Part shown: positions 2,455 to 35,680 of the stretch, in pieces
How the letters are laid out: each line of letters starts with the position of its first letter
Position numbering within the stretch: the first letter of the stretch is position 1
From: Acidaminococcus hominis
GTDB taxonomy: Bacteria > Bacillota > Negativicutes > Acidaminococcales > Acidaminococcaceae
Assembly (NCBI RefSeq): GCF_900291475.1
Contig: NZ_OLMM01000004.1
Coordinates: 261,613 to 325,612, forward strand
DNA length: 64,000 bases
Reading direction: 5' to 3'
The notes under the pieces: generated by a model
The model's database searches: none
The model's input: only the letters and a program-made list of their open reading frames with translations
What the model was told of the DNA's origin: nothing
Made by a program: the position numbers and the translations under genes

Positions 2455-2529
2455 TGGAGCGGAAAACGAGATTCGAACTCGCGACCCCCACCTTGGCAAG
2501 GTGGTGCTCTACCACTGAGCTACTTCCGC
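2455..2529 (-). tRNA. tRNA-Gly (anticodon GCC)
   Basis: Folds as a complete cloverleaf on the minus strand: acceptor GCGGAAG, anticodon stem CCACC/GGTGG around loop TTGCCAA with anticodon GCC, T-arm GTTCGAATC, and an encoded 3' CCA. It has its own promoter and terminator, so it is a single-gene unit. Confidence 0.95.
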
Positions 2530-2542
2530 AAAACATGATTAG

Positions 2543-2571
2543 ATTTTACTGGATATGAGCAGTTTTGTCAA
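2543..2571 (-). promoter_or_regulatory. Promoter of tRNA-Gly
   Basis: On the minus strand, consensus TTGACA (2566-2571) and TAAAAT (2543-2548) are separated by exactly 17 bp, placing the start of transcription a few bases before the tRNA. Confidence 0.8.
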
Positions 2572-2599
2572 TACCTTTTGTTGCATTTTTTACTATTTT

Positions 2600-3154
2600 T
2601 CACTCGGCCACCAGCGGTGCGGCCTGGGCAATAAACTGGGCCACCTGCTCCAGCGTGCTTAAAAAGGGCACGTCCTGGAACCAATCTTCCCCCAGGAAGC
2701 CTTCCTGGACCATTTGCTGCAAGGCAGCCTTCAGCGGCTGGTAAAAGCCGTTCACGTCCAAAAAGGCAAAGGGCTTGGTGATCAACCCCAGCTTTTGCTT
2801 GGCCATCACCTCGCTGATTTCTTCCAGGGTACCCACACCCCCGGGAAACGCCAGGAACACATCTCCCAGCTCCAGCATTTTGGCTTTCCGTTCCGCCATG
2901 GTTTTAGTGATCAACAGCCGGCTGAGACCGGGCTGCTGCATTTCCTTCTCTACAAAGAACCGGGTTTCTACACCTACCACCCGTCCGCCCTGGGCCAGCA
3001 CTGTTTCTGCCAGTATGCCCATAAGACCGGTGCGGCTGCCCCCGTACACCAGGGTATGACCGTTCTGGGCCAAATAGGTACCCAGCTCCTTGGCAAATTG
3101 CTCATAGCAGGGATGATTTCCCTTGCTGGAGCCCAAATAAACCGTAATGTTCAT
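2600..3154 (-). CDS. LOG-family protein (cytokinin riboside 5'-monophosphate phosphoribohydrolase-like)
   Basis: A 184-residue Rossmann-like protein of the TIGR00730/LOG family. It has the N-terminal Y-L-G-S-S-K-G segment, the GGSRTGLMG nucleotide-binding turn and the diagnostic PGGVGTLEE motif around residues 104-112. Family members hydrolyse nucleoside 5'-monophosphates to base and ribose 5-phosphate. The bacterial physiological substrate is usually unknown. The ATG follows an AGGGAG ribosome binding site. It appears monocistronic, with a hairpin repeat upstream. Confidence 0.9.
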   Translation of the reverse strand: MNITVYLGSSKGNHPCYEQFAKELGTYLAQNGHTLVYGGSRTGLMGILAETVLAQGGRVVGVETRFFVEKEMQQPGLSRLLITKTMAERKAKMLELGDVFLAFPGGVGTLEEISEVMAKQKLGLITKPFAFLDVNGFYQPLKAALQQMVQEGFLGEDWFQDVPFLSTLEQVAQFIAQAAPLVAE

Positions 3155-3256
3155 ACTTATACTCCCTGTAACATTTTATACACTCTGACGTCCATTATAA
3201 GCTTTCCCCGCAGCCGCTGCAATGGATTTTTCCGAAGAAAAAAGGGGGTTGAAAAA

Positions 3257-3640
3257 AACTTCCTCAGTCAGCCATGCTGACTGACAGCTCCTTAGTGGTT
3301 CGCAGCGCTCCAATCAGCCGCGCCCTGCGGGCTTGCTTCTTGGGCTGCTATCACATGGCTCACATTAGCCAAGAGCATTTTGATAAACTGACATGCTCTT
3401 GGATGTGAGCGCAACGCTTGAAGGGGCCGGTCTTAGGCCTATACTGGTCGTGTGCTAAACGTGTGTAGCAAAGCAGCATAGTTCGTAAATACCTGCACTA
3501 ACCCTAGTCTATTACTTGACCAGTAGCGGCATAGAACGCTTCCTGCAAGCGTGTAGGAAGTGTCGCCGCAAGGCGACGATAGAAGTTTAATCAGCACAGC
3601 AGTTTTGAGGTTTGAATCCGGCTATGGCTATAATGAACAA
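3257..3640. repeat. Dispersed hairpin-rich intergenic repeat, copy R1
   Basis: The 527-bp gap between the LOG gene and the Na/Pi transporter is filled mainly by this element. It contains stem-loops CAGTCAG/CTGACTG (about 3266), CCAAGAGCAT/ATGCTCTTGG (about 3369-3400) with an outer stem to GTGAG, an inverted pair TACTGGTC/GACCAGTA (about 3440 and 3520), and GTCGCC-gcaa-GGCGAC (about 3562). It ends GGCTATAATGAACAA, as copy R2 does. No ORF with coding character is present. The modules recur at 13.5 and 33.7 kb, partly inverted. Confidence 0.8.
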
Positions 3641-3668
3641 CAAAAAAGGAGCTGCCGCAGCAGCTCCT
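3641..3668 (-). terminator. Intrinsic terminator of the Na/Pi symporter gene
   Basis: A GGAGCTGC-CGCA-GCAGCTCC hairpin at 3648-3667, followed on the minus strand by a run of six T residues, lies 14 bp past the stop codon. Confidence 0.85.
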
Positions 3669-3681
3669 CTCACAATATTCT

Positions 3682-5286
3682 TTAGAACTCGCCCATGACC
3701 AGTTGGGCAATGTTTTTGGCGTGGTCGCTGACCCGTTTCATGTTCAGCAATAATTCCAACATCACAAAGCCAGTTTCCGGAGTGCAGATGCCTTTGTTCA
3801 GACGTTCTACGTGGCTCTTTCTCATGGCTTTCTGCTTGGCGGATACCTGATGGGACAGGTCCAGAGAAGCCTTGGCCAGTTCCTGGTCGTGGGTTTCCAG
3901 GGCTTTGATGGCCTTGGTGGCTGCCCCTTCTACCAGGACTTCCAGCTCCTTCATTTCCGCATTGGCTTGGGCAGAGAAGTGGGTGCCGTCTTCGTTCATG
4001 CTGCGAACCCGCTTGGCAATGGTTTCCGCATGGTCACCAATACGTTCAATATCGCTGCAGGCATGGAGCAGGCCCGTATGGACCGTGGACATTTCCTTGC
4101 TCATGTTGGTTTCGGACATTTTGGTCAGATACACCGTAATGGCTTCTTCCAGGCTGTCCACCACCGGTTCATGATCCAGGACAAATTCCACTTTCTTCTT
4201 GTCGTATTTGTCTACGGCTTCGAAGGCTTTGTGGATATTTTCCAAGGCCAGGTCGCCCATCCGGGCAACTTCCTTGGTGGAAAGTTCCAGGGCAATGGCC
4301 GGGGTATTTAATACGTTCCGGTCCAGATACTTGGGCTGGTAGTTGATTTCGGTTTCGTCCCCAGGCATCAGCTTCTTGATCAGCTGGGTGAACTTGCCGG
4401 CAAAGGGCAGGAACAAAATGGTGTTCACCACGTTGAAGCAGGTGTGGGCGTTAGCAATCTGCCGGGCAATATCCCCTGCTGGAGAAATATGCAGCACCAA
4501 ATGGATGAACTGGGGCAGGAAGGTCATAGCAATAATGGACCCAATCAGGTTGAACATAACATGGGAGCAAGCCACACGCTTAGCGTTCAGGCCGGCCTGT
4601 ACCGTTGCCAGTACGGCGGTAATACAGGTACCAATGTTATCGCCCAACAGGACGGGGATGGCGCCTTCCAGGGGAATCAGGCCCTGGCTGGCCATAGCCA
4701 TCAAAATACCGATGGTAGCGGAGGAGGACTGGATCACCAGGGTCATGCAAAGACCAACGGCCAGGCCCAGCAGCGGATGGGTGGTAAAGCGGCCCAGGAA
4801 GTCAATCACGGCCTTATGCTGCCGCAGGGGAGTTACTGCATCCCCCATCATGGCCATACCCAGCATCAGGATACCAAAACCCAGGAGTACGGAACCCAGA
4901 TGTTTCAGCTGGCGTTTTTTGCACACGGCCTGCATCAGGAAACCGATGGCCAGAATCAGGGTAATATAATCAGTTAACTTAAAGGCAATCAACTGGGCGG
5001 TCATGGTGGTACCAATGTTGGCCCCCATAACAATCCCAAAGGCTTGTTCCAAATTCATCAGGCCGGCGTTTACCAGACCAACAACCATAACCGTTGTGGC
5101 ACTGGAAGACTGGAGCACGGCTGTAACGCCAGCGCCCAAGGCTACGCCGTAAATGGTTCTGCGGGTCAGTGCGCCCAGGATTTTCTGAAGCTTGGCGCCA
5201 GCTGCCTTTTGCAGCCCATCGCCCATCAGCGACATACCGTAAAGGAATAAAGAAATACCACCTAAAAATAGAAAAAAGTGAACCAA
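3682..5286 (-). CDS. Na+/phosphate symporter, NptA/PhoU-domain type
   Basis: A 534-residue member of the Na/Pi-cotransporter II family. Two inverted hydrophobic repeats each carry the signature QSSSAT (VLQSSSATTVMVVGLVNAG near residue 60; VIQSSSATIGILMAMASQG near 185). A C-terminal cytoplasmic PhoU-like helical domain spans about residues 330-534. It probably imports inorganic phosphate with Na+ at the inner membrane. The start is TTG at 5286, chosen because GGAGGAGAT precedes it at good spacing and no better ATG lies upstream. It is monocistronic. Confidence 0.9.
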   Translation of the reverse strand: MVHFFLFLGGISLFLYGMSLMGDGLQKAAGAKLQKILGALTRRTIYGVALGAGVTAVLQSSSATTVMVVGLVNAGLMNLEQAFGIVMGANIGTTMTAQLIAFKLTDYITLILAIGFLMQAVCKKRQLKHLGSVLLGFGILMLGMAMMGDAVTPLRQHKAVIDFLGRFTTHPLLGLAVGLCMTLVIQSSSATIGILMAMASQGLIPLEGAIPVLLGDNIGTCITAVLATVQAGLNAKRVACSHVMFNLIGSIIAMTFLPQFIHLVLHISPAGDIARQIANAHTCFNVVNTILFLPFAGKFTQLIKKLMPGDETEINYQPKYLDRNVLNTPAIALELSTKEVARMGDLALENIHKAFEAVDKYDKKKVEFVLDHEPVVDSLEEAITVYLTKMSETNMSKEMSTVHTGLLHACSDIERIGDHAETIAKRVRSMNEDGTHFSAQANAEMKELEVLVEGAATKAIKALETHDQELAKASLDLSHQVSAKQKAMRKSHVERLNKGICTPETGFVMLELLLNMKRVSDHAKNIAQLVMGEF

Positions 5287-23936: not shown

Positions 23937-24791
23937 ATGAGTGAATGCAGCGGCTGCAGCAAATCCGGTTCCGCCTGCTCCGGTTGTGCTTCTAAACCGA
24001 AGGTCAACGAACAGGATATTGCCATTGCAGATTTTCTTGCGCAGGTAAAACATAAACTGGTTGTCATGAGCGGCAAAGGCGGCGTGGGCAAAAGCACCGT
24101 GTCCGTGGATCTGGCCCTGATTCTGGCAGAACGGGGATATAAGGTAGGACTTATGGACGTGGATCTCCACGGCCCCAGTATTGCCACCATGCTGGGCTTT
24201 GACAAGGCCCGGGTACAGGTACTGGGGGACCAGCTCCTGCCCTTCCATTACAACGATAATCTGGAATTTCTGTCCGCCCAGGGCTTTTTGGCCAATTCCG
24301 ATGATGCCCTGATTTGGAGAGGACCCATGAAAATTGGCGCTATCCGCCAATTCATGTCCGATACCCGCTGGGATCCTTTGGATTACCTGATCATCGACTG
24401 CCCTCCCGGCACCGGCGATGAACCTTTAACCGTAATCCAAACCATCACCGACGCCCAGGCCGTCATCGTGACCACCCCCCAAAAGGTGGCGCTGGCCGAC
24501 GTGCGCAAATCCCTGAGCTTCTGTGAACTGGCCCACATCCCGGTACGGGGCATTATTGAAAATATGAGCGGCTTTATCTGCCCCCACTGCCACCAGAAAG
24601 TGGATATTTTCAAATCTGGCGGCGGCAAGGACCTGGCTGCCGAAAAAGGCCTGCCTTTCCTGGGTCAGATTCCCATCGACCCTATGGTGGTGGCTGCCGA
24701 AGACAACGGCTCTCCCCTGGACAATATCAGCCCGGAAAGCCGGACAGCACTGGACGAAATCGTCGACAACATTCTGGCTGCCGACAAGTAA
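23937..24791 (+). CDS. Mrp/NBP35-family Fe-S cluster carrier ATPase
   Basis: A 284-residue MinD-like P-loop ATPase (ApbC/Mrp). The Cys-rich N-terminus CSGCSKSGSACSGC is unusual for bacterial Mrp and resembles NBP35-type N-terminal clusters. The deviant Walker A SGKGGVGKST is near residue 45. The dimer-bridging CPHC motif that binds a shared 4Fe-4S cluster is near residue 220. It probably assembles or transfers clusters to apo-proteins such as the Fe-S enzymes encoded nearby (PFOR, ThiC, HutW). Monocistronic, with a strong AGGAGG site. Confidence 0.93.
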   Translation: MSECSGCSKSGSACSGCASKPKVNEQDIAIADFLAQVKHKLVVMSGKGGVGKSTVSVDLALILAERGYKVGLMDVDLHGPSIATMLGFDKARVQVLGDQLLPFHYNDNLEFLSAQGFLANSDDALIWRGPMKIGAIRQFMSDTRWDPLDYLIIDCPPGTGDEPLTVIQTITDAQAVIVTTPQKVALADVRKSLSFCELAHIPVRGIIENMSGFICPHCHQKVDIFKSGGGKDLAAEKGLPFLGQIPIDPMVVAAEDNGSPLDNISPESRTALDEIVDNILAADK

Positions 24792-24800
24792 TTGCCCCAA

Positions 24801-24850
24801 AACAAAACAGCGGAACCTGGAGAATTTTCTCTGGATTCCGCTGTTTTTTT
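24801..24850. terminator. Bidirectional terminator between mrp and citXG
   Basis: The stem ACAGCGGAA-(T)CC / GG-ATTCCGCTGT (24807-24844) with T tract GTTTTTTTA on the plus strand and A-rich flank AACAAAAC on the other side serves two convergent genes. Confidence 0.8.
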
Positions 24851-24866
24851 ATTCCGTAAACTCTGC

Positions 24867-26246
24867 TCAGCCAAAAACGGCTTCCATCCGGACCAGGAAA
24901 ATGGCCAGGATCAATAGGTCTGCGCAGCCGCCGGGGCTGATATTCTTTTGGATAAAGTCTTCGTTCAGGTCCCATACCGCCTGTAGACCTTCCGGGGTAA
25001 AGGCGCCGCCCCGGTCCAAAATATGCTTAGCCTGCTGCTGGGCTTCCTTCAGGGTAGCGCTGTCCGACCGGCTGAGGATATTGGTATCCTCCACCTGGCT
25101 CAGGAGCAGCAGCAGGGTCTGGATGTAGGCCTCGTTTTGGGGCCTCCCTTCCTGGACAAACTGTCTCAGGGCCGGCAGGGCCACCTTAGCCAGGGACGGG
25201 AAGCCTTCCATGGCCTCGCCCCGGATGCCCTTAAAGCCATATTTCACGTACAGCACTTCCCCGTGGGTATGGGGATGGTAGGGGTCGATTTTGGCAAAGT
25301 CCTGCTCCAAAACGGGGGTGACATTTTCCCCAATGGCCTTGAGCACCGCCTCACTGGAAACCTTGCCGGTCTGGGCCAGCTGCCACAGGGTAAAGGAGGT
25401 CACAAGCCCCAGGGAGAAGATAATTCCCTTGTGGGTGTTCACGTTGCCCGTAGCCCGGAACATAGCCTTTTCGGCCGCTGCTCCCATGGGCCGCAGGGAC
25501 AGGAACAGGTCTGCGCCGCTGCCTTCCCACAGCCAGCCCTTTTCCGCCATTTCCCGCAAAAAGGGCACAATGGCATCGGTGCTGGCAGCAAAGGTGTGCC
25601 AGTCCATATCCTTGTGGGCGCCGGGGTTGTCCCGATCCACCAGCCCCGGTTTGGGAGTGGCGTCCACTTCCCCCTGGAGCCCTGCCCGCAGGTTCTGCTC
25701 CACCGTGTCCAGGAGGAAATTCTCCAGGATTCTGTGGATATTCCGCTGGAGGGTAGAAACGCTGTGCTTCCGGCTCCGGGCACAGGCCTGGGCGGGCTGG
25801 GAGCATACCAGGCACAGCCGGCCGGGCAGGCCCAGTTCCTGGCGTTCCAGCTTCCGGCCGTCCCGGTCCAATACGTCCATATCAAACAGACGGCCCAGCC
25901 GGTCCTGGTTTTCAATCTGGCAGGCAAGGGTCTTTATGGCCGCCGGTTCTCCGTCCAGCACGTAGTACTTTTCGTAGCCGGTTTTGGCCTCAATGACCTT
26001 CTCATAGAGAACGGGAATCCCCGCCTCCTGGAAAGCCGCCTCCAGCCGCCGGATGCCTTCCCGAAAACCCAAATGAATCAGAGGGGAGGTCTTTACCGGG
26101 CCGGGAATGTTCAGGGTAAAAAACAACAGGGGCTTCTGGTATCTTGCAAGAAGTACTTGCTGGGCTCTGGCCCGGCCGTCCCGGGCTGCCAGCATATCCG
26201 GCACTTCTACCGCCGGTCCCCCGTGCAAAATGACAAATTCTTTCAT
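24867..26246 (-). CDS. citXG: CitXG fusion: citrate lyase holo-ACP synthase / triphosphoribosyl-dephospho-CoA synthase
   Basis: A 459-residue bifunctional protein maturing the citrate lyase acyl carrier protein. The N-terminal roughly 170 residues are CitX, which transfers the prosthetic group to apo-CitD (AARDGRARAQQVLLARYQKPLLFFTLNIPGP is the characteristic start). The remaining roughly 285 residues are CitG, which makes 2'-(5''-triphosphoribosyl)-3'-dephospho-CoA; its signature VDATPKPGLVDRDNPGAHKDMDW is near residue 215. Such fusions are known in several Firmicutes. It is 8 bp downstream of the lysR gene and divergent from citDEF. CitC, the lyase-activating ligase, is not in the window. 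Confidence 0.92.
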   Translation of the reverse strand: MKEFVILHGGPAVEVPDMLAARDGRARAQQVLLARYQKPLLFFTLNIPGPVKTSPLIHLGFREGIRRLEAAFQEAGIPVLYEKVIEAKTGYEKYYVLDGEPAAIKTLACQIENQDRLGRLFDMDVLDRDGRKLERQELGLPGRLCLVCSQPAQACARSRKHSVSTLQRNIHRILENFLLDTVEQNLRAGLQGEVDATPKPGLVDRDNPGAHKDMDWHTFAASTDAIVPFLREMAEKGWLWEGSGADLFLSLRPMGAAAEKAMFRATGNVNTHKGIIFSLGLVTSFTLWQLAQTGKVSSEAVLKAIGENVTPVLEQDFAKIDPYHPHTHGEVLYVKYGFKGIRGEAMEGFPSLAKVALPALRQFVQEGRPQNEAYIQTLLLLLSQVEDTNILSRSDSATLKEAQQQAKHILDRGGAFTPEGLQAVWDLNEDFIQKNISPGGCADLLILAIFLVRMEAVFG

Positions 26247-26254
26247 ATAGTGAC

Positions 26255-27166
26255 TTATTCCTTCCTTTTTCTGCCGTTATTCCGGATCAGTTCTGCAAAA
26301 GCCCGGGCATAAGGGCTGAGATAGGCGTCCTTGCGGATACAGATATAGCAGTACCGTTTGTTGGCCACGCCTAATAAAGGATATAATACACAGTTGCCTT
26401 TTGACAAGAAGTATTCGTCCAAATAAACGTCGGGGCACAGGAAAACCACTTCCATGGCGCTGACCAGCCGCTTGCCCACCTCGATGCTGGAGGTTTCCAG
26501 TACGATGCTGGGTTTGATTTCGTAGGTGCTGAACACGTTGTCCTGGACCCGGCGCACATTGTGGCCTTCCGTAATGGAAACGAATTCCTCGTTTTTGGCT
26601 TCGGTGATGTGGATGGGCGTCCCCGGCTTGATGCGCTGGGCCAGGGTGGTCTGCTTGTTGGCCACCAGCACCACGTCTTCCGTTTCCACCAGTTCGTAGC
26701 TGAGCTCGTCGTTGGTGGGGGTGGTAGTGGTAATGGCCAGGTCCACGCCGCCGTTGAGGACGGCATTTTCCGTAATGCTGCTGCCGGCCTCCTGAATTTC
26801 CAGCTTGATATGGGGATAGCGCTGCCGGAAAATGGGCACCACCTGGGGCAGCATCATCATGGCCCGCTGTACGGGGATTCCGATGCGCAGGGTTCCATAC
26901 CCTTCATACTGGATATCCGCCACCTCGTGCAGCAGGTTGGAGCTGATGGTAATCACTTTCTTTACGGCTGCAATATATTTTTTTCCTGCTTCTGTCAGCA
27001 CAATGGGGTTGGTGTTGCGCAGGAATATGGGTGCACCCAGGTACTTTTCCACGGCCTTGATGGTCTGGCTCAGTGCCGGTTGGGATACATGCATGGTTTT
27101 GGAGGCATTGGTGATGCTCCCCTCCTTGATAATTTCCATGATGTACTGTGCGTGTTTTAAGTTCAT
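26255..27166 (-). CDS. LysR-family regulator, probably of citrate fermentation
   Basis: A 303-residue LysR-type regulator: N-terminal winged HTH (ITNASKTMHVSQPALSQTIKAVEKYLG, residues 17-41) and a C-terminal periplasmic-binding-like effector domain from about residue 90. It is divergent from citDEF and cotranscribed with citXG, so it probably controls citrate genes; citrate as inducer is inference. The intergenic region carries an ATAAG-N6-CTTAT inverted repeat that recurs before the second citM gene. An AAGGAGGAACT ribosome binding site sets the start. Confidence 0.85.
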   Translation of the reverse strand: MNLKHAQYIMEIIKEGSITNASKTMHVSQPALSQTIKAVEKYLGAPIFLRNTNPIVLTEAGKKYIAAVKKVITISSNLLHEVADIQYEGYGTLRIGIPVQRAMMMLPQVVPIFRQRYPHIKLEIQEAGSSITENAVLNGGVDLAITTTTPTNDELSYELVETEDVVLVANKQTTLAQRIKPGTPIHITEAKNEEFVSITEGHNVRRVQDNVFSTYEIKPSIVLETSSIEVGKRLVSAMEVVFLCPDVYLDEYFLSKGNCVLYPLLGVANKRYCYICIRKDAYLSPYARAFAELIRNNGRKRKE

Positions 27167-27282
27167 AGTTCCTCCTTGGCTCCCTATTTTTTCTGTCTTT
27201 TTTCATCCCGTCGGGGACTTTTTTTATTTGCTCGTTATTTGTGACAATTTCTCGAAATCCGGGAAGCCGCATTATAAGGCCC

Positions 27283-27343
27283 TTTCCGGGCCCTGATAAG
27301 AAATCGCTTATGCAGATTATATCATTATTTATATTAGTTTTCC
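27283..27343 (+). promoter_or_regulatory. citDEF control region, first copy of a shared operator/promoter module
   Basis: The module TTTCCGGG-N5-ATAAG-N6-CTTAT-N13-TTATTTATATTAGTTTTCC lies upstream of citD. It reappears with identical spacing upstream of the second citM (32124-32184). CTTATG (27307) and TATATT (27330) are 17 bp apart and could be the -35/-10 pair, overlapped by the inverted repeat, as is common for LysR-activated promoters. Confidence 0.75.
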
Positions 27344-27414
27344 AATTTTTCATATGTTACTATCAAAGTGCAACAATATGTACATTGTCTACATTTCTAG
27401 AAGGAGTGATTTGA

Positions 27415-27714
27415 ATGGAATTGAAGAAGGCAGCCATGGCTGGCACTGTTGAGTCTTCTGATGCCCAAGTAACGGTCGAACCCGGTTCCAATGGTATCGA
27501 ACTCAATATTGAAAGCAGCGTCATCCACCAATATGGTAGACAGATTAAGGCTGTTGTTCTGGAAACCCTGACGAAACTGGACGTGAAGAACGCCAAAGTT
27601 TCCGTCGTAGATAAGGGCGCTCTGGACTGCACTTTAAAAGCCCGCGTTGAAGGAGCGGTGTACCGTTCTATTAACGAGGACCCTGATACACCGAATCCCT
27701 GGGAGGTTTTATAA
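27415..27714 (+). CDS. citD: Citrate lyase acyl carrier protein (gamma subunit)
   Basis: A 99-residue CitD. The pattern KAAMAGTVESSDAQVTVEP near the N-terminus holds the Ser that carries the phosphoribosyl-dephospho-CoA prosthetic group, and SSVIHQYGRQIKAVVLETL is family-typical. In the complex it carries the acetyl/citryl thioester between CitF and CitE. The AGAAGGAGTGATTTGA ribosome binding site gives the start. First gene of citDEF; citE starts 1 bp after its stop. Confidence 0.95.
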   Translation: MELKKAAMAGTVESSDAQVTVEPGSNGIELNIESSVIHQYGRQIKAVVLETLTKLDVKNAKVSVVDKGALDCTLKARVEGAVYRSINEDPDTPNPWEVL

Positions 27715-27715
27715 G

Positions 27716-28630
27716 ATGGAAGTAGTTAACACGAATCCCAACTTCAAGCGCCTGAGAAGAACCATGATGTTCTTGAATGCGCAAAAACCGAGCCTGATTA
27801 AAGACCCGTATGTTTACAAACCCGATTCCATCATGCTGGACCTGGAAGACGCCGTCGCTGAAAACCAAAAGGACGCAGCCCGTTACTCCCTGTTCCATGC
27901 CTTGAAAGAAATCGATTATCATGGCTGTGAAAGAGTTGTCCGGATCAACGGTCTGGAAACTCCCCACTGGAAAGAAGATGTCCGGGTTTCTGTAGCCGGC
28001 GGCTGCGATGCCATTCGTCTGGCCAAGACCGAATCCGCTAAAGACATCCACACCGTGGAAGAAGCCATTCTGGCTGCGGAAAAAGAATTCCACAGACCTA
28101 TCGGCAGCACCCTGATTATGGCTGCTATCGAATCCACCAAAGGTATCCTGAACGTACTGGAAATCTGCCAGTCCTCCGATCGTCTGTTCGGCGTTGCACT
28201 TAGCGGCGGCGACTACACCAAGGACCTGCAGACCTCCATTTCCAAGACCGGCGTTGAACTGATGGGCGCTCGTCAGCAAATGGTTATTGCTGCCCGTGCT
28301 ACCGGCCGTATGTGCTTTGATACGGTTTACACCGATTTGGACGACATGGAAGGCTTCAAAAAAGACGTTCAAATGATCAAAACCATGGGCTTTGATGGCA
28401 AATCCATCATCAACCCTCGTCAGATTGTACCGACCCACGAAATCTTTACTCCCAGCGAAAAAGAAATCCGCTATGCGGAACAAGTAGTTCGTGAAATCGA
28501 TACCAAGAAGGCTATGGGTATCGGTGTATTCACCATCAACGGCAAAATGCTGGATATCGCCTTCTATGACGGCGCCAAGAGAACCTTAGCTTTGGCCAAG
28601 GCTGCCGGTGTATATAAGGGGGAATTATAA
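27716..28630 (+). CDS. citE: Citrate lyase beta subunit (citryl-ACP lyase)
   Basis: A 304-residue HpcH/HpaI-family TIM barrel that cleaves citryl-ACP into oxaloacetate and acetyl-ACP. Metal- and substrate-binding motifs are intact: SIMLDLEDAVAENQKDAAR near residue 40, RINGLETPHW, AAIESTKGILNV and ALSGGDYTKDLQ. The frame remains open upstream to 27647, but ATG 27716 follows GGGAGG inside the citD end and matches the family start. Oxaloacetate made here would feed the PFOR route via pyruvate. Confidence 0.95.
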   Translation: MEVVNTNPNFKRLRRTMMFLNAQKPSLIKDPYVYKPDSIMLDLEDAVAENQKDAARYSLFHALKEIDYHGCERVVRINGLETPHWKEDVRVSVAGGCDAIRLAKTESAKDIHTVEEAILAAEKEFHRPIGSTLIMAAIESTKGILNVLEICQSSDRLFGVALSGGDYTKDLQTSISKTGVELMGARQQMVIAARATGRMCFDTVYTDLDDMEGFKKDVQMIKTMGFDGKSIINPRQIVPTHEIFTPSEKEIRYAEQVVREIDTKKAMGIGVFTINGKMLDIAFYDGAKRTLALAKAAGVYKGEL

Positions 28631-28631
28631 G

Positions 28632-30188
28632 ATGATTAATAAAGTCGGTAGAGATATTCCTCAGGAGATCCTGGATCTGACCGGTAAGGAAGTCTTCCAG
28701 GGTGCCTATGCCAAACAAGGCGTAGAGTACAAAACCGCTACCCATACGGTAGCTCCTGTAATGGATCCCAGCTATAGCAAAGTTGTCAATTCCATTGAAG
28801 AAGTTCTGAAGAAATGCGGCATTAAAGACGGCATGACCCTGGGCTTCCACCATCATTTCCGTGAAGGGGATATGGTTGTGAACATGGTTATGAAAGCCGT
28901 TCATGATATGGGCATTAAGGACATTACCATTTGCGCCAGCTCCCTGGGCAAAGCCAATGATCCTATCGTTCCCTACATTGAAGATGGCACCATCACCAAC
29001 ATTCAGTCTTCCGGCGTGCGCGGCAAAATCGGCCAAGCAATCAGCAACGGCAAACTGAAGGGTCTGGCCATCATGCGCAGCCACGGCGGCCGCGTAAGAG
29101 CCATTGAATCCGGCGAAACTCATATCGATATCGCCTTCATCGGCGCTCCTACCTGCGACGAATACGGCAACTGCCGTGCCATCGGCGGCAAGAGCGACTG
29201 CGGCGTACTGAGCTATGCTGCTGTAGATGCTGACTATGCTGACAAAGTGGTAGCCGTAACGGATACCCTGGTAGCATTCCCCAACATCCCCGCTTCCATT
29301 TCCATGACCAAAGTTGACTATGTCCTGGTAGTTGATGCCATCGGCGATCCCAACAAGATTGCTACCGGTGCTGCCAAACCTACCACCGACATGAGAAAAC
29401 TTCTGATGGCCAAGTACACCACCGAATTCCTGGTGCACACTCCTTACTACAAGGACGGCTTCACCTATCAGACCGGCGTTGGCGGCGCTTCCATTGCTTC
29501 CACCAAACTGCTGGCTGACCACCTGAGAAAAGACAACATCCACATCAGCGTAGGCCTGGGCGGTATTTCCAAACCCATGTGCGACCTGCTGGATGAAGGC
29601 CTGGTGGAAAAAATCGTTGACACCCAGGATTTCGATATGGATGCCATCGAAAATATCAAAACCAACCCCAACCACATTGAAATCACGGCTTCCGAATATG
29701 CCGATCCTTTCAATAAAGGTGCTTATGTAAACAAGCTGGACTTCGTTATCCTGGCTTCCCTGGAAGTAGATACCCACTTCAACTGCAACGTTGTAGTAGG
29801 TTCTGACGGTGTGATCACCGGTGCTCAGGGCGGTCACCCGGATACCGCAGCCGGCGCAAAATGCACCATCGTAATTGCTCCCCTGCTGCAAGGCCGTATT
29901 CCTGCCATCTGCACCAACGTAACCACGGTAACCACTCCGGGCGAAACCGTTGACGTAGTTGTTACGGACTATGGTATTGCCATCAACCCTCGCCGCCAGG
30001 ATCTGATTGACTGCATGAAGGACGTAGATCTGCCCTTCTACACCATCGAAGAACTGCGCGACATGGCGTACAAGATGGTTGGTGAACCTGATCCGGTACA
30101 ATTTGGCGACCGGGTTGTAGGTATCATCGAAGGCCGGGACGGCACCATTATGGATGTGGTTCGTCAGGTTAAGGATTTTGAGTTCTAA
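28632..30188 (+). CDS. citF: Citrate lyase alpha subunit (citrate:acetyl-ACP transferase)
   Basis: A 518-residue CitF of the usual length. It exchanges the acetyl group on CitD for citrate, forming citryl-ACP. Family motifs include GMTLGFHHHFREGDMVVNMV near residue 75, RSHGGRVRAIESGE, and YQTGVGGASIASTK, a glycine-rich CoA-transferase-like segment. The C-terminal EGRDGTIMDVVRQV is also typical. ATG 28632 follows the citE stop by 1 bp. The gene ends at a strong terminator, partly insulating the downstream transporter. Confidence 0.96.
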   Translation: MINKVGRDIPQEILDLTGKEVFQGAYAKQGVEYKTATHTVAPVMDPSYSKVVNSIEEVLKKCGIKDGMTLGFHHHFREGDMVVNMVMKAVHDMGIKDITICASSLGKANDPIVPYIEDGTITNIQSSGVRGKIGQAISNGKLKGLAIMRSHGGRVRAIESGETHIDIAFIGAPTCDEYGNCRAIGGKSDCGVLSYAAVDADYADKVVAVTDTLVAFPNIPASISMTKVDYVLVVDAIGDPNKIATGAAKPTTDMRKLLMAKYTTEFLVHTPYYKDGFTYQTGVGGASIASTKLLADHLRKDNIHISVGLGGISKPMCDLLDEGLVEKIVDTQDFDMDAIENIKTNPNHIEITASEYADPFNKGAYVNKLDFVILASLEVDTHFNCNVVVGSDGVITGAQGGHPDTAAGAKCTIVIAPLLQGRIPAICTNVTTVTTPGETVDVVVTDYGIAINPRRQDLIDCMKDVDLPFYTIEELRDMAYKMVGEPDPVQFGDRVVGIIEGRDGTIMDVVRQVKDFEF

Positions 30189-30202
30189 TAGCTTTGACCC
30201 TT

Positions 30203-30240
30203 GACCTAACCGGGACTGGTTATCCCGGTTAGGTCATTTT
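30203..30240 (+). terminator. Terminator between citF and the first citM
   Basis: A perfect 13-bp hairpin GACCTAACCGGGA / TCCCGGTTAGGTC with a 6-7-nt loop followed by ATTTTCC. The weak T tract could allow partial read-through into citM, which has no obvious promoter of its own. Confidence 0.75.
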
Positions 30241-30260
30241 CCTAGAAAAGGAGGATTACT

Positions 30261-31595
30261 ATGTTTCTTGGTATTGTTGGTTTCCTGATGGTAATCATCA
30301 TCGTGGCAGCCCTGATTCGCGGGAAATCTAACCCCGTACCTCTGTTCGTTATTGTTCCTGTTGTTGCAGCCCTGATTACCGGTTTCACCCCGGATCAAAT
30401 CTTTAAATTCATCACTGCTGGTGTAGGCAAGACTTGGTCCACTGCTGTACTGTTCATTTTCTCCATCGTTTACTTCTCCATGATGGGCGATATGGGCCTG
30501 TTTGACCCGATGGTAAACTGGCTGGTTAAAAAAGCCGGCGACAACATCGTAATGGTCACCATTGCCACTGCCTGCATCGCTGTTATCTCCCACTTGGACG
30601 GCGCTCTGGCTTCCACCCTGCTGATCACCATCCCTGCCATGCTTCCTATTTATAAGAAGCTGCACATGAGACCGGTAGTGCTGGTCTGCATCATTGGTGC
30701 TGCCATGTCCATCATGAACCTGCTGCCTTGGGGCGGCCCTGTTGCCCGTACCGGCGTTGTACTGAACGTCGATGTTAACGCACTGTGGCAGGAACTGATT
30801 CCCCTGCAGGGCGTTGGTCTGGTTATCCTGATGATCTTCGCTGCCTACATGGGTGTTATGGAAAAGCGCCGCGGCGCTGGCCTGAACCCCACTGGCAAGG
30901 CTGCTATGCTGTCTGAAGACGAAGACGAAGGCTCCAAGGACGACAACCTGTCTGCTGACGATGCTGCTTTCATGAAACGCCCGAAGATGATCTGGTTCAA
31001 CGGCCTGCTGACCATCGTAGTTATCGGTCTGCTGTGCTTCACCGACATTCCTCTGTACGGTGCTTTCATGTTCGGTCTGGCCATCGCTTTGATTGCCAAC
31101 TTCCGTACTGCTTCTGAACAAGCAAGAGCTATCAAAATGCATGCTGCTACCGCTCTGACCATGCCTATGATCCTGCTGGCTTCCGGTGTATTCCTGGGTG
31201 TTCTGTCCAAGACCGGCATGATGAAAGCTATGGCACAAATGCTGATTGCTATTGTTCCTGCGGCTCTGGGACCCCATCTGCAAGACGTATTCGGCTTCTT
31301 CGCAGTGCCTATCGGCATGATGCTGGGTACCGACTCCTACTTCTTCGGTCTGCTGCCTCTGGCTATCGGTGTTGGTCAACAGTTCGGTGTTGATCCTCAC
31401 AACATGGCTATGGCTATGCTGATTGGTAAGAACTACGGCGTTATGGTTACTCCTCACGCTGCTACCACCTTCCTGGCCTGCGGCCTGGCTGGTATCTCCA
31501 TCAAAGAACTGCTGAAGTTCTGCACCCCGCGTCTGTGGGTTCTGTCCTGGTTCTCCCTGCTGGGCGGCCTGATGCTGGGTCTGTTCAAATTCTAA
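30261..31595 (+). CDS. CitMHS-family citrate transporter, copy 1
   Basis: A 444-residue polytopic inner-membrane protein of the CitMHS family (citrate-divalent cation/H+ symporters such as B. subtilis CitM). About twelve hydrophobic segments surround a charged loop (SEDEDEGSKDDNLSADD near residue 220). The conserved LLPWGGPVARTGVVL and GTDSYFFGLLPLA segments are present. Position after citDEF supports citrate as substrate. 95% of residues are identical to the second copy at 32.3 kb. The ribosome binding site is AAAGGAGG. Confidence 0.92.
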   Translation: MFLGIVGFLMVIIIVAALIRGKSNPVPLFVIVPVVAALITGFTPDQIFKFITAGVGKTWSTAVLFIFSIVYFSMMGDMGLFDPMVNWLVKKAGDNIVMVTIATACIAVISHLDGALASTLLITIPAMLPIYKKLHMRPVVLVCIIGAAMSIMNLLPWGGPVARTGVVLNVDVNALWQELIPLQGVGLVILMIFAAYMGVMEKRRGAGLNPTGKAAMLSEDEDEGSKDDNLSADDAAFMKRPKMIWFNGLLTIVVIGLLCFTDIPLYGAFMFGLAIALIANFRTASEQARAIKMHAATALTMPMILLASGVFLGVLSKTGMMKAMAQMLIAIVPAALGPHLQDVFGFFAVPIGMMLGTDSYFFGLLPLAIGVGQQFGVDPHNMAMAMLIGKNYGVMVTPHAATTFLACGLAGISIKELLKFCTPRLWVLSWFSLLGGLMLGLFKF

Positions 31596-31610
31596 GCAAG
31601 GACTTACTGA

Positions 31611-31646
31611 AACTGCTCTCCGGTTATCCGGAGGGCAGTTTTTTTA
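31611..31646 (+). terminator. Terminator after the first citM
   Basis: The hairpin AACTGCTCTCCGG-TTAT-CCGGAGGGCAGTT is followed by seven T residues. Confidence 0.88.
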
Positions 31647-31649
31647 TGG

Positions 31650-32123
31650 GGTTTTGGAGCGGCAATAAAGGGCAAGCAAAAAACAACCTAGACCGCCAAA
31701 AGAAAGGCCCTTGCAGGGCAAATTTGGCGGTGCTGGGAGGCATTTTATCCTGGAAGCAAGTTTTGTGTACCCATTAGTTTCTGCAGCTTAACCCCAAAGC
31801 TTGCTTCTAGGACACCGTCCCCAGAAAAACCTCGTTTATACGGCATCACCTTTTGCTCCCAAATGCTAACGTTGGTCCCAGTCGCCTCACTGCTCCCCTT
31901 ATTTCTTCCGTTCTCCTGACAATCCATTTTATAAAGCCATCAGATTTTCGCAAATCTGTAACAGATTGTTTTTCCGTCGACTGCAAAAAAGAGGTGTTTT
32001 TTGTTCATTTTTAGCACTTTTTCTGTTTTTCCATAGTTCCTCTGCCCGGAATTTTGAAAAAATTTCTATTTTTGTACATTTGAAACAATTTACAAAAACC
32101 TGCTAAGCCACATCCTGTGCCCG
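31650..32123. other. 474-bp unexplained stretch between the two citM genes
   Basis: No convincing coding sequence. It contains a two-tier hairpin CCGCCAAA / TTTGGCGG (31693-31730) with inner GCCC/GGGC, and a longer-range inverted pair GAAGCAAG / CTTGCTTC around 31750-31812. The T-rich 3' part from about 31940 has several T tracts and no recognisable RNA motif. It may be a remnant from the transporter duplication. Confidence 0.45.
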
Positions 32124-32184
32124 TTTCCGGGTTTCCATAAGTTATTCCTTATGGTATTTATTTTATTATTTATATTAGTTTTCC
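32124..32184 (+). promoter_or_regulatory. Second citM control region, copy of the citDEF module
   Basis: TTTCCGGG (32124), ATAAG (32137-32141), CTTAT (32148-32152) and TTATTTATATTAGTTTTCC (32166-32184) repeat the citDEF promoter arrangement with identical spacing. Here the inverted repeat is extended to CCATAAG/CTTATGG. Candidate -35 CTTATG and -10 TATATT are 17 bp apart. A second shared segment, TCCGGGAAGCCGCATTA, lies downstream at about 32258 and has its twin at about 27258. Confidence 0.75.
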
Positions 32185-32297
32185 GAATATTGCTATGCTA
32201 AGATTTTAACGAAGTCAAGGGAACCCATCTTACTTCTCCGCTGACCGTGACGGCCCGTCCGGGAAGCCGCATTACACTTTTAAAGGAGGACACTACT

Positions 32298-33632
32298 ATG
32301 TTCTTGGGCGTTGTTGGTTTTTTGATGGTTGTCATCATTGTGGCAGCCTTGATTCGCGGGAAATCTAACCCCGTACCTCTGTTCGTTATTGTTCCTGTTG
32401 TTGCAGCCCTGATCACCGGTTTCACCCCTGCTCAGATCTTCAAATTCATGTCTGCTGGCGTAGGCAAAACCTGGTCCACCGCTGTACTGTTCATTTTCTC
32501 CATCGTTTACTTCTCCATGATGGGCGATATGGGCCTGTTCGACCCGATGGTAAACTGGCTGGTTAAAAAAGCCGGCAGCAACATCGTTATGGTTACCATT
32601 GCTACCGCCTGCATCGCTGTTATCTCCCACTTGGACGGCGCTCTGGCTTCCACCCTGCTGATCACGATTCCTGCTATGCTTCCTATTTATAAAAAATTGC
32701 ATATGAGACCAGTAGTGTTGGTTTGCATCATCGGTGCTGCCATGTCCATCATGAACCTGCTGCCTTGGGGCGGCCCTGTTGCCCGTACCGGCGTTGTACT
32801 GAACGTCGATGTTAACGCACTGTGGCAGGAACTGATTCCCCTGCAGGGCGTTGGTCTGGTTATCCTGATGATCTTCGCTGCCTACATGGGTGTTATGGAA
32901 AAGCGCCGCGGCGCTGGCCTGAACCCCACTGGCAAGGCTGCTATGCTGTCTGAAGACGAAGACGAAGGCTCCAAGGACGACAACCTGTCCGCTGACGATG
33001 CTGCTTTCATGAAGCGTCCGAAGATGATCTGGTTCAACGGCATCCTGACCCTGGTGGTTATCGGCCTGCTGTGCGCTACCGACATTCCTCTGTACGGCGC
33101 TTTCATGTTTGGTCTGGCCATCGCTTTGATTGCCAACTTCCACACTGCTTCTGAACAAGCAAGAGCTATCAAAATGCATGCTGCTACCGCTCTGACCATG
33201 CCTATGATCCTGTTGGCTTCCGGTATTTTCCTGGGCGTTCTGGACAAAACCGGCATGATGAAGGCTATGGCTCAAATGCTGATCGCTATTGTTCCTTCCT
33301 TCATGGGTGCTCACCTGCAAGACATATTCGGTTTCTTCGCAGTACCTATCGGCATGATGCTGGGTACCGACTCCTACTTCTTCGGTCTGCTGCCTCTGGC
33401 TATCGGTGTTGGTCAACAGTTTGGTGTTGATCCGCACAACATGGCTATGGCTATGCTGATTGGTAAGAACTACGGCGTTATGGTTACTCCTCACGCTGCT
33501 ACCACCTTCCTGGCCTGCGGCCTGGCTGGTATCTCCATCAAAGAACTGCTGAAGTTCTGCACCCCGCGTCTGTGGGTTCTGTCCTGGTTCTCCCTGGCAG
33601 CCGGCGCTATGCTGGGCCTGTTCCACCTGTAA
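32298..33632 (+). CDS. CitMHS-family citrate transporter, copy 2
   Basis: A 444-residue paralogue of the gene at 30261, with about 22 amino-acid differences, concentrated at residues 5-52, around the middle (LLTIVVIGLLCF versus ILTLVVIGLLCA), near 310-345 and at the last ten residues. A 257-bp stretch (30696-30952 versus 32733-32989) is identical at DNA level, while neighbouring segments carry clusters of silent changes, suggesting gene conversion. It has its own citDEF-like promoter module. Start ATG 32298 follows AAAGGAGG. Different affinity or metal preference is possible but not shown. Confidence 0.92.
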   Translation: MFLGVVGFLMVVIIVAALIRGKSNPVPLFVIVPVVAALITGFTPAQIFKFMSAGVGKTWSTAVLFIFSIVYFSMMGDMGLFDPMVNWLVKKAGSNIVMVTIATACIAVISHLDGALASTLLITIPAMLPIYKKLHMRPVVLVCIIGAAMSIMNLLPWGGPVARTGVVLNVDVNALWQELIPLQGVGLVILMIFAAYMGVMEKRRGAGLNPTGKAAMLSEDEDEGSKDDNLSADDAAFMKRPKMIWFNGILTLVVIGLLCATDIPLYGAFMFGLAIALIANFHTASEQARAIKMHAATALTMPMILLASGIFLGVLDKTGMMKAMAQMLIAIVPSFMGAHLQDIFGFFAVPIGMMLGTDSYFFGLLPLAIGVGQQFGVDPHNMAMAMLIGKNYGVMVTPHAATTFLACGLAGISIKELLKFCTPRLWVLSWFSLAAGAMLGLFHL

Positions 33633-33675
33633 GAATCAGTTTCAGAAATAGCTTATAGAAATAAAATAGGTTCCC

Positions 33676-33708
33676 AAAGAGGATGTGCTCCGGCACATCC
33701 TCTTTTTC
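33676..33708 (+). terminator. Terminator after the second citM
   Basis: The 12-bp hairpin AAAGAGGATGTG / CACATCCTCTTT with a 6-nt loop followed by TTTCCTTATT. Confidence 0.85.
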
Positions 33709-33719
33709 CTTATTAGGCC

Positions 33720-34092
33720 CCTCCAAACGTGGAGGGGCTGGCAGTCCGGAGGACTGACTGAGGAAGTTCAATGCAAAGAGGCCCCTTCAGCGGTTCGCGG
33801 CTCGCTGCGCAGCTTCACCCTACGGGTTTGCTTTGCAGGCCGCTATCGCATGGGCCTTATGGACCAAACAGCCATTTGCAGAATTTGTCGGGCTGTTTGG
33901 ATGCGGCCGCAAAGCGTTGCGCTCACATCCAAGAGCATATCCGTAGTTCAAAATGCTCTTGGTTTATGTGAGCCATGTGATAGCCGTCCGTGATTCCGAA
34001 CCCGAAGGGTGAAGGAGAACGGAGTACGGCGAACCACTGCGGGGCTGGCAGTCCGGAGGACTGACTGAGGTAGTTCAATGCAAAGGGGCCCC
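33720..34092. repeat. Dispersed hairpin-rich intergenic repeat, copy R3 with 44-bp direct repeats
   Basis: Two 44-bp direct repeats (33734-33777 and 34041-34084, one mismatch), each with the CAGTCC-gga-GGACTG hairpin, bracket the element. Inside are a forward hairpin CCAAACAGCC/GGCTGTTTGG and, in opposite orientation, CCAAGAGCAT/ATGCTCTTGG with outer stem GCTCACAT/ATGTGAGC matching R1. Sequence related to GGTTCGCGGCT...GGCCGCTATC of R2 flanks the first hairpin, and its inverse flanks the second. The element sits after citM2 and is convergent with the O-antigen ligase gene. Confidence 0.8.
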
Positions 34093-34327
34093 GACCGTTC
34101 CTATCCACTCGTTTTCCACTTCTTGCTGCTAGCAGGGTCTATGGCCCTCTCCTCTGCCCTTTTAGCCGCTTTCCTGCGGTGCCAGGGGAAATGCCTAAGC
34201 CGCTTTCTTCTCCTGCTGAAGGTCTTCCAAAATGCGTTTTTAAGCGTTCTTGGTTTCTCCCCTACCACCAGGTATTATTCTCTCCCAGCGGCTCTCTCAG
34301 AGCCAATTTGGCGCTGCTTCAGGCAGT
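34093..34327. other. Intergenic stretch with no recognised feature
   Basis: Between R3 and the terminator of the next minus-strand gene. C/T-rich on the plus strand. Open frames here lack ribosome binding sites and coding character. No repeats shared with the rest of the window. Confidence 0.4.
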
Positions 34328-34375
34328 AAAAAACCGGGTAAGCTGTACACTTTGGTACAACTTACCCGGTTTTCT
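34328..34375 (-). terminator. Terminator of the folC / O-antigen ligase unit
   Basis: A 17-bp hairpin AACCGGGTAAGCTGTAC / GTACAACTTACCCGGTT (one interruption) followed on the minus strand by a run of T residues, 15 bp after the stop. Confidence 0.85.
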
Positions 34376-34390
34376 TTATTTTCTTTCACC

Positions 34391-35680
34391 CTATGCTTGG
34401 TTATTCTGTTTCAAAAGCCGTTTTTCCGCATGGGCATTTTCCTTGGCGCTGATGTCGTTCATCACCAGCAGCAGGGCATTTCCCGCCCAAAACAGCATAC
34501 CCAGCTGAATGTTGAACAGGGTATAATCCGTCAGGCCGCTGACAAAAATCCCCACCAGGCTGGCCAAATACCCGCAGGCCACGCCCCGGATCCAGGGGGA
34601 AGCCTTCCGATGCCGGATTTCCTTGGCCAGGAGCACCAGCCGGAAGATGACGTACAGAAACAGGAGAATCCCCGGGATGCCCAGCTCCGCCGTAATGTTC
34701 AGCAGCATATTATGCCCGTGGTACATGATTACATCTTCACTGATAAAGAAGTTGTAATTGGGAAAGGCGAACTGGTACCCGTACCAGCCCACCCCCAGGG
34801 GATGGTCCTGGATCATGTCCAGGGAGCTCTGGAGGTACATGAACCGCAGCTCTGCCGAGGTATCCGTTACGGAAAAGATGGACATAATCCGGGCCGCCAG
34901 TTGGTTCCAGCCCAGGTACAGCACCGCCAGACCGCCTCCGATAAAAGGCAGCAGGGCTTTGTGGTAAAAGGCGCCGGCAAACACAAACAGCACCCAGAAA
35001 TACGCCACCCAGTTGCCCCGGGAGAAGGTGAAGATCAAGCAGGCCGTGGACAGCAGGAAAATCAGCACCAGGGACCAGCGGGTTTTGCCGCCCTTTAAGG
35101 GAGCAAAGAGCCCTTCACAGTAGGCCACGGTCATTACCAGGTAGGTCCCAAAGATATTGGGGTTTACCAGGGTGGAAATGGCCCGGCGCTGGAGCTGGTG
35201 GAAGGCCTGGTGGTCAATCCAGTCCGCTTCCTGGAGGCTGTTGCCAAAGAAGTATTGCCACAGCCCGAAAACAGTTACCACCGCAGCGGAAATCATGAAT
35301 ACCTTCATGAGAAACAGGGACCGCCGGCTGGTGCTGGCATAGCGCAGCAGCAGGTAGAAAATCCCCGCTTCCTGGCCCATGACCCACACCCAGTTGAACA
35401 GGCTGGCACCCGGGTTCAGAGACCACAGGGTGCTGACGCCGCTGAGGATAAACAGGGCCCACAGGGGTCGGCTCAGGTAGGAGGGCACCGTGATGGCCGG
35501 CCAGAACTGCCGGGTGCGCACCACATTCACCAGGTTCAGCAAAAAACAAACCAGAAAGGCAATTCCTGCCGCCCACTGGTTCAGGGGCAGGACAAAAATC
35601 AAGACGGCCAGTGCAGCATAGGTAACTTGGTTCAGATTCCAGGATTGGGGCAGTCCCCAGCCTCGTGGTCGTTTACGCAT
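34391..35680 (-). CDS. O-antigen ligase / Wzy-type membrane protein
   Basis: A 429-residue polytopic membrane protein with about ten to twelve hydrophobic segments and a periplasmic loop between roughly residues 290 and 350. FSRGNWVAYFWVL in the middle is the Wzy_C SRG-type motif, and GVGWYGYQFAFPNY with HGHNMLLN follows the WaaL-like pattern (conserved His in the loop). It is probably a lipid A-core:O-antigen ligase or a polymerase. It starts 5 bp after folC, so it is coexpressed with valS-folC or folC. It is distinct from the ligase-like protein at 163-1359. Confidence 0.78.
   Translation of the reverse strand: MRKRPRGWGLPQSWNLNQVTYAALAVLIFVLPLNQWAAGIAFLVCFLLNLVNVVRTRQFWPAITVPSYLSRPLWALFILSGVSTLWSLNPGASLFNWVWVMGQEAGIFYLLLRYASTSRRSLFLMKVFMISAAVVTVFGLWQYFFGNSLQEADWIDHQAFHQLQRRAISTLVNPNIFGTYLVMTVAYCEGLFAPLKGGKTRWSLVLIFLLSTACLIFTFSRGNWVAYFWVLFVFAGAFYHKALLPFIGGGLAVLYLGWNQLAARIMSIFSVTDTSAELRFMYLQSSLDMIQDHPLGVGWYGYQFAFPNYNFFISEDVIMYHGHNMLLNITAELGIPGILLFLYVIFRLVLLAKEIRHRKASPWIRGVACGYLASLVGIFVSGLTDYTLFNIQLGMLFWAGNALLLVMNDISAKENAHAEKRLLKQNNQA

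Follow-up and report, generated by a model that had tools for sequence, protein, structure and literature searches.

A shared, putative LysR-type promoter module before citrate lyase and citrate transporter genes points to a small citrate-fermentation regulon in Acidaminococcus

The two copies of a composite control element that stand before the citrate lyase genes citDEF and before the citrate transporter gene citM2 of Acidaminococcus hominis are probably activator promoters of the LysR type, belonging to one small regulon for citrate fermentation. Both lie in a 64,000-nucleotide stretch of contig NZ_OLMM01000004.1 (the window), at a locus with genes for a CitX-CitG fusion, a LysR-type regulator, citD, citE, citF and two CitMHS-family citrate transporters. 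Given that one switch stands before the genes of the lyase and of an importer, citrate uptake and breakdown would probably be induced together. Fermentation of citrate and trans-aconitate by Acidaminococcus, which are gut bacteria, is documented (PMC3035267), and our literature search found no paper on citrate gene regulation in this genus. The two-target citrate regulon is a fresh, clean example of a well-known type of bacterial switch; the proposed regulator, the operator, the start site and the pairing of two targets are now specific enough for direct testing.

The presumed regulator, a protein of 303 amino acids, is encoded on the minus strand (26255 to 27166) and, as had been described from the letters alone, adjoins the first copy and is divergent from citD, which starts at 27415. 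It belongs to the LysR type, with Pfam scores of 61.6 bits for the N-terminal helix-turn-helix domain (HTH_1, PF00126) and 126.2 bits for the C-terminal substrate-binding domain (LysR_substrate, PF03466), both above the cut-off. On the plus strand, citDEF (27415 to 30188) consists of citD (27415 to 27714), citE (27716 to 28630) and citF (28632 to 30188); citD and citF scored above the NCBIfam cut-offs, while citE was the best match but fell below its cut-off. Two transporter genes follow on the same strand, citM1 (30261 to 31595) and citM2 (32298 to 33632), whose proteins are 95% identical. A strong terminator-like hairpin with a 14-pair stem (30202 to 30236, plus strand) separates citF from citM1, which has no module of its own in the window genome, so that its expression would depend on readthrough; relatives with tandem citM genes carry the module before citM1. 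The citM tandem lies behind citF in five genomes, and in three others a module-bearing citM is found nearby. The window genome also holds a second citD-like gene (G000:C13:181266-181526), 48% identical and without the module.

Two exact copies of the composite occur at 27283 to 27343 and at 32124 to 32184 with identical spacing, where 100 shuffles gave an expectation of zero, and this part of the sequence-only reading stood. The 19-base tail TTATTTATATTAGTTTTCC has no exact match in the genome other than those two copies, and the likeness extends, ungapped, over 123 bp (27237 to 27359 against 32078 to 32200) at 69% identity. Within each copy, the putative primary operator ATAAG-N6-CTTAT, a feature of no particular strand, occupies 27296 to 27311 in the first and 32137 to 32152 in the second, where it is extended to CCATAAG-N6-CTTATGG. 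A second block, TATATTAGTTTTC, follows on the plus strand at 27330 to 27342 and at 32171 to 32183, presumably serving as activation site and as a weak -35 region.

We compared the window genome with eight relatives, the named ones being Acidaminococcus and including A. massiliensis, A. fermentans and A. intestini. The module stands before both citD and citM in each examined Acidaminococcus genome in which both promoters were assembled. When up to three mismatches were allowed, the module matched at 22 places in the nine genomes, of which 21 precede citD (nine) or citM (twelve); the remaining match had three mismatches and fell within a coding frame. Other ATAAG-N6-CTTAT sites exist in the window genome, none of them with the second block. 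In 50 genomes from 17 other genera of the family, the module was absent at one mismatch or fewer, with one match at two mismatches and seven at three, a rate close to that of a reversed control pattern. The LysR orthologue was likewise found in all nine Acidaminococcus-group genomes and in none of those 50 (E ≤ 1e-70); regulator and module thus co-occur. The sequence-only reading had proposed one regulator acting at two promoters, and the nine-genome comparison upholds the shared module and links it to the LysR gene, although the placement of the repeat had to be revised (see below).

The 21 copies, which are not independent of one another, were aligned. The outer ATAA and TTAT of the operator were kept in all 21, bar one A left of the right arm region, with the inner G present in 19 and the inner C in 20, around a variable N6. 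The block TATATTMGWTTTC lies 18 bp past the right arm in every copy and is invariant bar single exceptions, and all spacings among the core elements are fixed. On the other hand, TTTCCGGG, which had been counted as part of the module, is not kept in relatives.

This pattern bears on whether the likeness of the promoters could be no more than leftover homology of a promoter duplication, with no function in common. The copies are indeed homologous over 123 bp, and the citM2 copy of the window is nearer to the citD copies than to the other citM copies. However, identity between the citD set and the citM set was 99% in the 27 core columns and 41% in the other 101; since the core columns were picked after inspection, these figures illustrate the contrast and do not serve as a test. 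The same column pattern slid along the alignment reached at most 81%. A short tree separated the citD copies from the citM copies with support of 92/96, so that the duplication is probably older than the radiation of the genus. A likeness without shared function is hardly credible on this evidence. Within the history of the copies, the citM2 copy of the window genome shares 67% identity with the citD copy of that genome and resembles the citD copies in general (0.61) more than the other members of the citM set (0.53). Part of the citD promoter may have been copied into the citM2 promoter, which would explain the long exact identity of the two copies.

The inverted repeat had initially been placed over a -35/-10 pair. 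In that arrangement TATATT would be the -10 and CTTATG the -35, and a regulator, possibly a repressor, would act where the repeat overlaps the -35. TATATT is near invariant, and in all copies CTTATN precedes it by 17 bp. However, 22 bp past TATATT there is a hexamer preceded by TRTGN, and TRTGNTA together with the final T of this hexamer is present in all 21 copies, with positions 3 to 5 of the hexamer variable. Invariant ends with a variable middle are what marks an extended -10. If TATATT is taken as the -10, this invariant TRTGNTAnnnT, at its fixed distance, is left without explanation, and the variable middle is seen there alone; moreover, in one citM1 copy (genome G008) TATATT has become TCTATT, with the key A lost, while the downstream extended -10 is kept. 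We consider a promoter at TATATT unlikely. In the LysR activator reading, which we prefer, the extended -10 is TATGT-TACTAT for citDEF (27353 to 27363) and TATGC-TAAGAT for citM2 (32194 to 32204), both on the plus strand and 15 to 20 bp beyond the -35/-10 pair first proposed. Starts predicted 7 nt past the extended -10 fall near 27370 (citD) and 32211 (citM2). Counted from such a start, the centre of the operator would lie at -66.5, and TATATTMGWTTTC would span roughly -40 to -28 as the -35/activation site. LysR-type promoters usually have their primary and activation sites in these places. The conserved second block would occupy the place of an activation site, with no clear full dyad within it; a half-site-like TTTAT at 27328 would stand 21 bp, two helical turns, past CTTAT. 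The operator reads ATAA-N8-TTAT, that is, T-N12-A, and does not fit the usual LysR dyad T-N11-A, which is one base shorter.

From this layout we infer binding, the sign of regulation, the effector and the start sites as follows. A dimer of the divergently encoded LysR protein would occupy ATAAG-N6-CTTAT, around -66. In the presence of the inducer, which is probably a tricarboxylate such as citrate, another dimer would contact TATATTMGWTTTC and recruit polymerase to a promoter with a weak -35 and the extended -10 TRTGNTAnnnT. At citD, the bound operator would also cover the start of lysR on the other strand and repress it, while at citM2 the module would work in one direction. Consistent with this, the best candidate for the lysR promoter lies on the minus strand between 27345 and 27316, reading TTGGAA-N18-TATAAT with a TG before the -10 (-35 TTGGAA or TGGAAA from 27345 or 27344; extended -10 TG-A-TATAAT at 27316 to 27321). 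It was the top promoter-like match in 27160 to 32320 (10/12 with TG). The operator overlaps this presumed promoter, with the predicted lysR start inside its right arm, which makes self-repression of lysR probable. ATTATA was kept in 9/9 citD copies and in 0/12 citM copies, the latter having no divergent lysR. The differences between citD and citM copies separate the bases for rightward transcription from those of the regulator's own promoter.

As to which protein operates the module, about 52 LysR-type proteins of the window genome matched the CcpC model, a high number for 2.6 Mb. With so many, adjacency to citD is by itself a weak argument, and we counted against our best explanation that another of these proteins could bind the module. 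The orthologues of the cit-adjacent LysR are 80 to 89% identical, with a nearly invariant DNA-binding domain, and divergent from citD in all nine genomes: eight loci are complete, and the ninth (G007) has the same layout with citD cut by the contig end. The structure that AlphaFold predicted for the regulator, based on an alignment of seven sequences, was poor, with a mean pLDDT of 56. The possibility that the cit-adjacent protein is itself CcpC was rejected, given that it scored 82 bits against the CcpC model NF058504 (NCBIfam), whose cut-off is 400, and lacks one citrate-binding arginine. At the CcpC residues, it has Thr for Arg147 and His for Ser191, with equivalents of Arg260 and Ser129 present. 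We also counted the Thr against our explanation, as bearing on the effector.

A CcpC-like protein does exist in the genome (locus L091, G000:C7:252306-253154) and could be thought to operate the module in place of the cit-adjacent LysR. It has both citrate arginines of CcpC and is found in all nine genomes, and CcpC uses ATAA/TTAT boxes (PMC8514465). However, its gene (L091, 1501 to 2349) is divergent from an aconitase-like gene (2483 to 3847) in nine of nine genomes, and none of the nine has a copy of the module there; its orthologues fall to 46 to 47% identity in the genus, whereas little has changed in the module or in the cit-adjacent LysR. Control by this or another LysR-type protein seems to us decidedly improbable. 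As for the effector of the cit-adjacent regulator, citrate or another tricarboxylate is likely, judging from the target genes and from the neighbour of the closest LysR outside the genus. The latter, 46% identical, is encoded on a Candidatus Aphodomonas contig (L089), on which no ATAA-N7-9-TTAT site was found. On that contig, the LysR gene and a tricarboxylate-receptor-like gene are divergent (203 to 1207 and 1353 to 2270), and we read the neighbour, from its open reading frame, as a candidate receptor of the tripartite tricarboxylate transporter type. With a confidence nearly balanced by doubt, we suggest that the citrate pathway is split in Acidaminococcus, with a CcpC-like LysR beside aconitase and an unrelated, genus-specific LysR for lyase and transporter. 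The operator of the latter would be nearly frozen across the genus, and the contrast of citD with citM promoters would amount to nature's own dissection of a promoter that works both ways.

LysR-type systems of the BenM and CatM type have a divergent regulator gene, a primary site near -65, a second site by -35 and an overlap with the regulator's own promoter. The citD module shares the divergent layout and the overlap with the presumed own promoter and, going by the predicted starts, would share the placing of the sites; CatM was the top phmmer match of the regulator among solved structures. It differs in having T-N12-A instead of T-N11-A and in serving two target promoters, the second without the regulator's promoter. 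At citB, CcpC of Bacillus, a citrate-responsive LysR-type protein, has its dyad at -66 and, in the region of -30, a half site (PMC8514465). We counted this layout, of a dyad at -66 with a downstream half site, in favor of the LysR activator reading, since the module would likewise combine an ATAA/TTAT dyad at -66 with a second site near -30 before citrate-pathway genes. Differences are the spacing within the dyad (N7 in CcpC, N8 here), the targets (aconitase for CcpC, lyase and transporter here) and the sign, since CcpC represses citB (PMC8514465) while activation is proposed here. The TarR protein of Bacillus velezensis, of the LysR type, responds to trans-aconitate and does not bind citrate (PMC11495376). 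Its gene is also divergent from a metabolic gene, and it exerts positive control of an enzyme and a transporter that both serve a tricarboxylate, as predicted here, but the TTATAA palindromes bound by TarR are not a conserved element in the 21 module copies. Finally, CitR (YbdO) of Escherichia coli, likened here by gene neighborhood, is of the LysR type, and its gene adjoins those for citrate lyase; it is reported to repress ybdNM, with the lyase genes up in the mutant (PMC9068703).

The sequence-only reading had also named a third shared block, the 17-mer TCCGGGAAGCCGCATTA. It does occur exactly at 27258 (27258 to 27274, plus strand) and 32258, with no further exact copy in the genome, but we rejected it as a part of the module, given that the longest match between the two corresponding regions of other genomes was 8 bases; we treat it as specific to the window genome. 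Its second occurrence (32258 to 32274) provides, for the most part, the 3' arm of a predicted hairpin in the citM2 5' untranslated region (32240 to 32267, plus strand). A hairpin whose loop resembles GCCCG precedes the ribosome site in most other citM leaders, and the leaders look alike when each sequence is folded singly. A consensus fold of the citM leaders (alignment A3) had just four pairs and did not back the hairpin, which we therefore do not claim as a conserved RNA, and Rfam gave no relevant RNA in 24500 to 34500. The first 17-mer includes the partly conserved CCGCAT (27267 to 27272); a CCGCAT-like element, at this position and at 32108 to 32113, stands ca. 24 to 29 bp before the operator in most copies.
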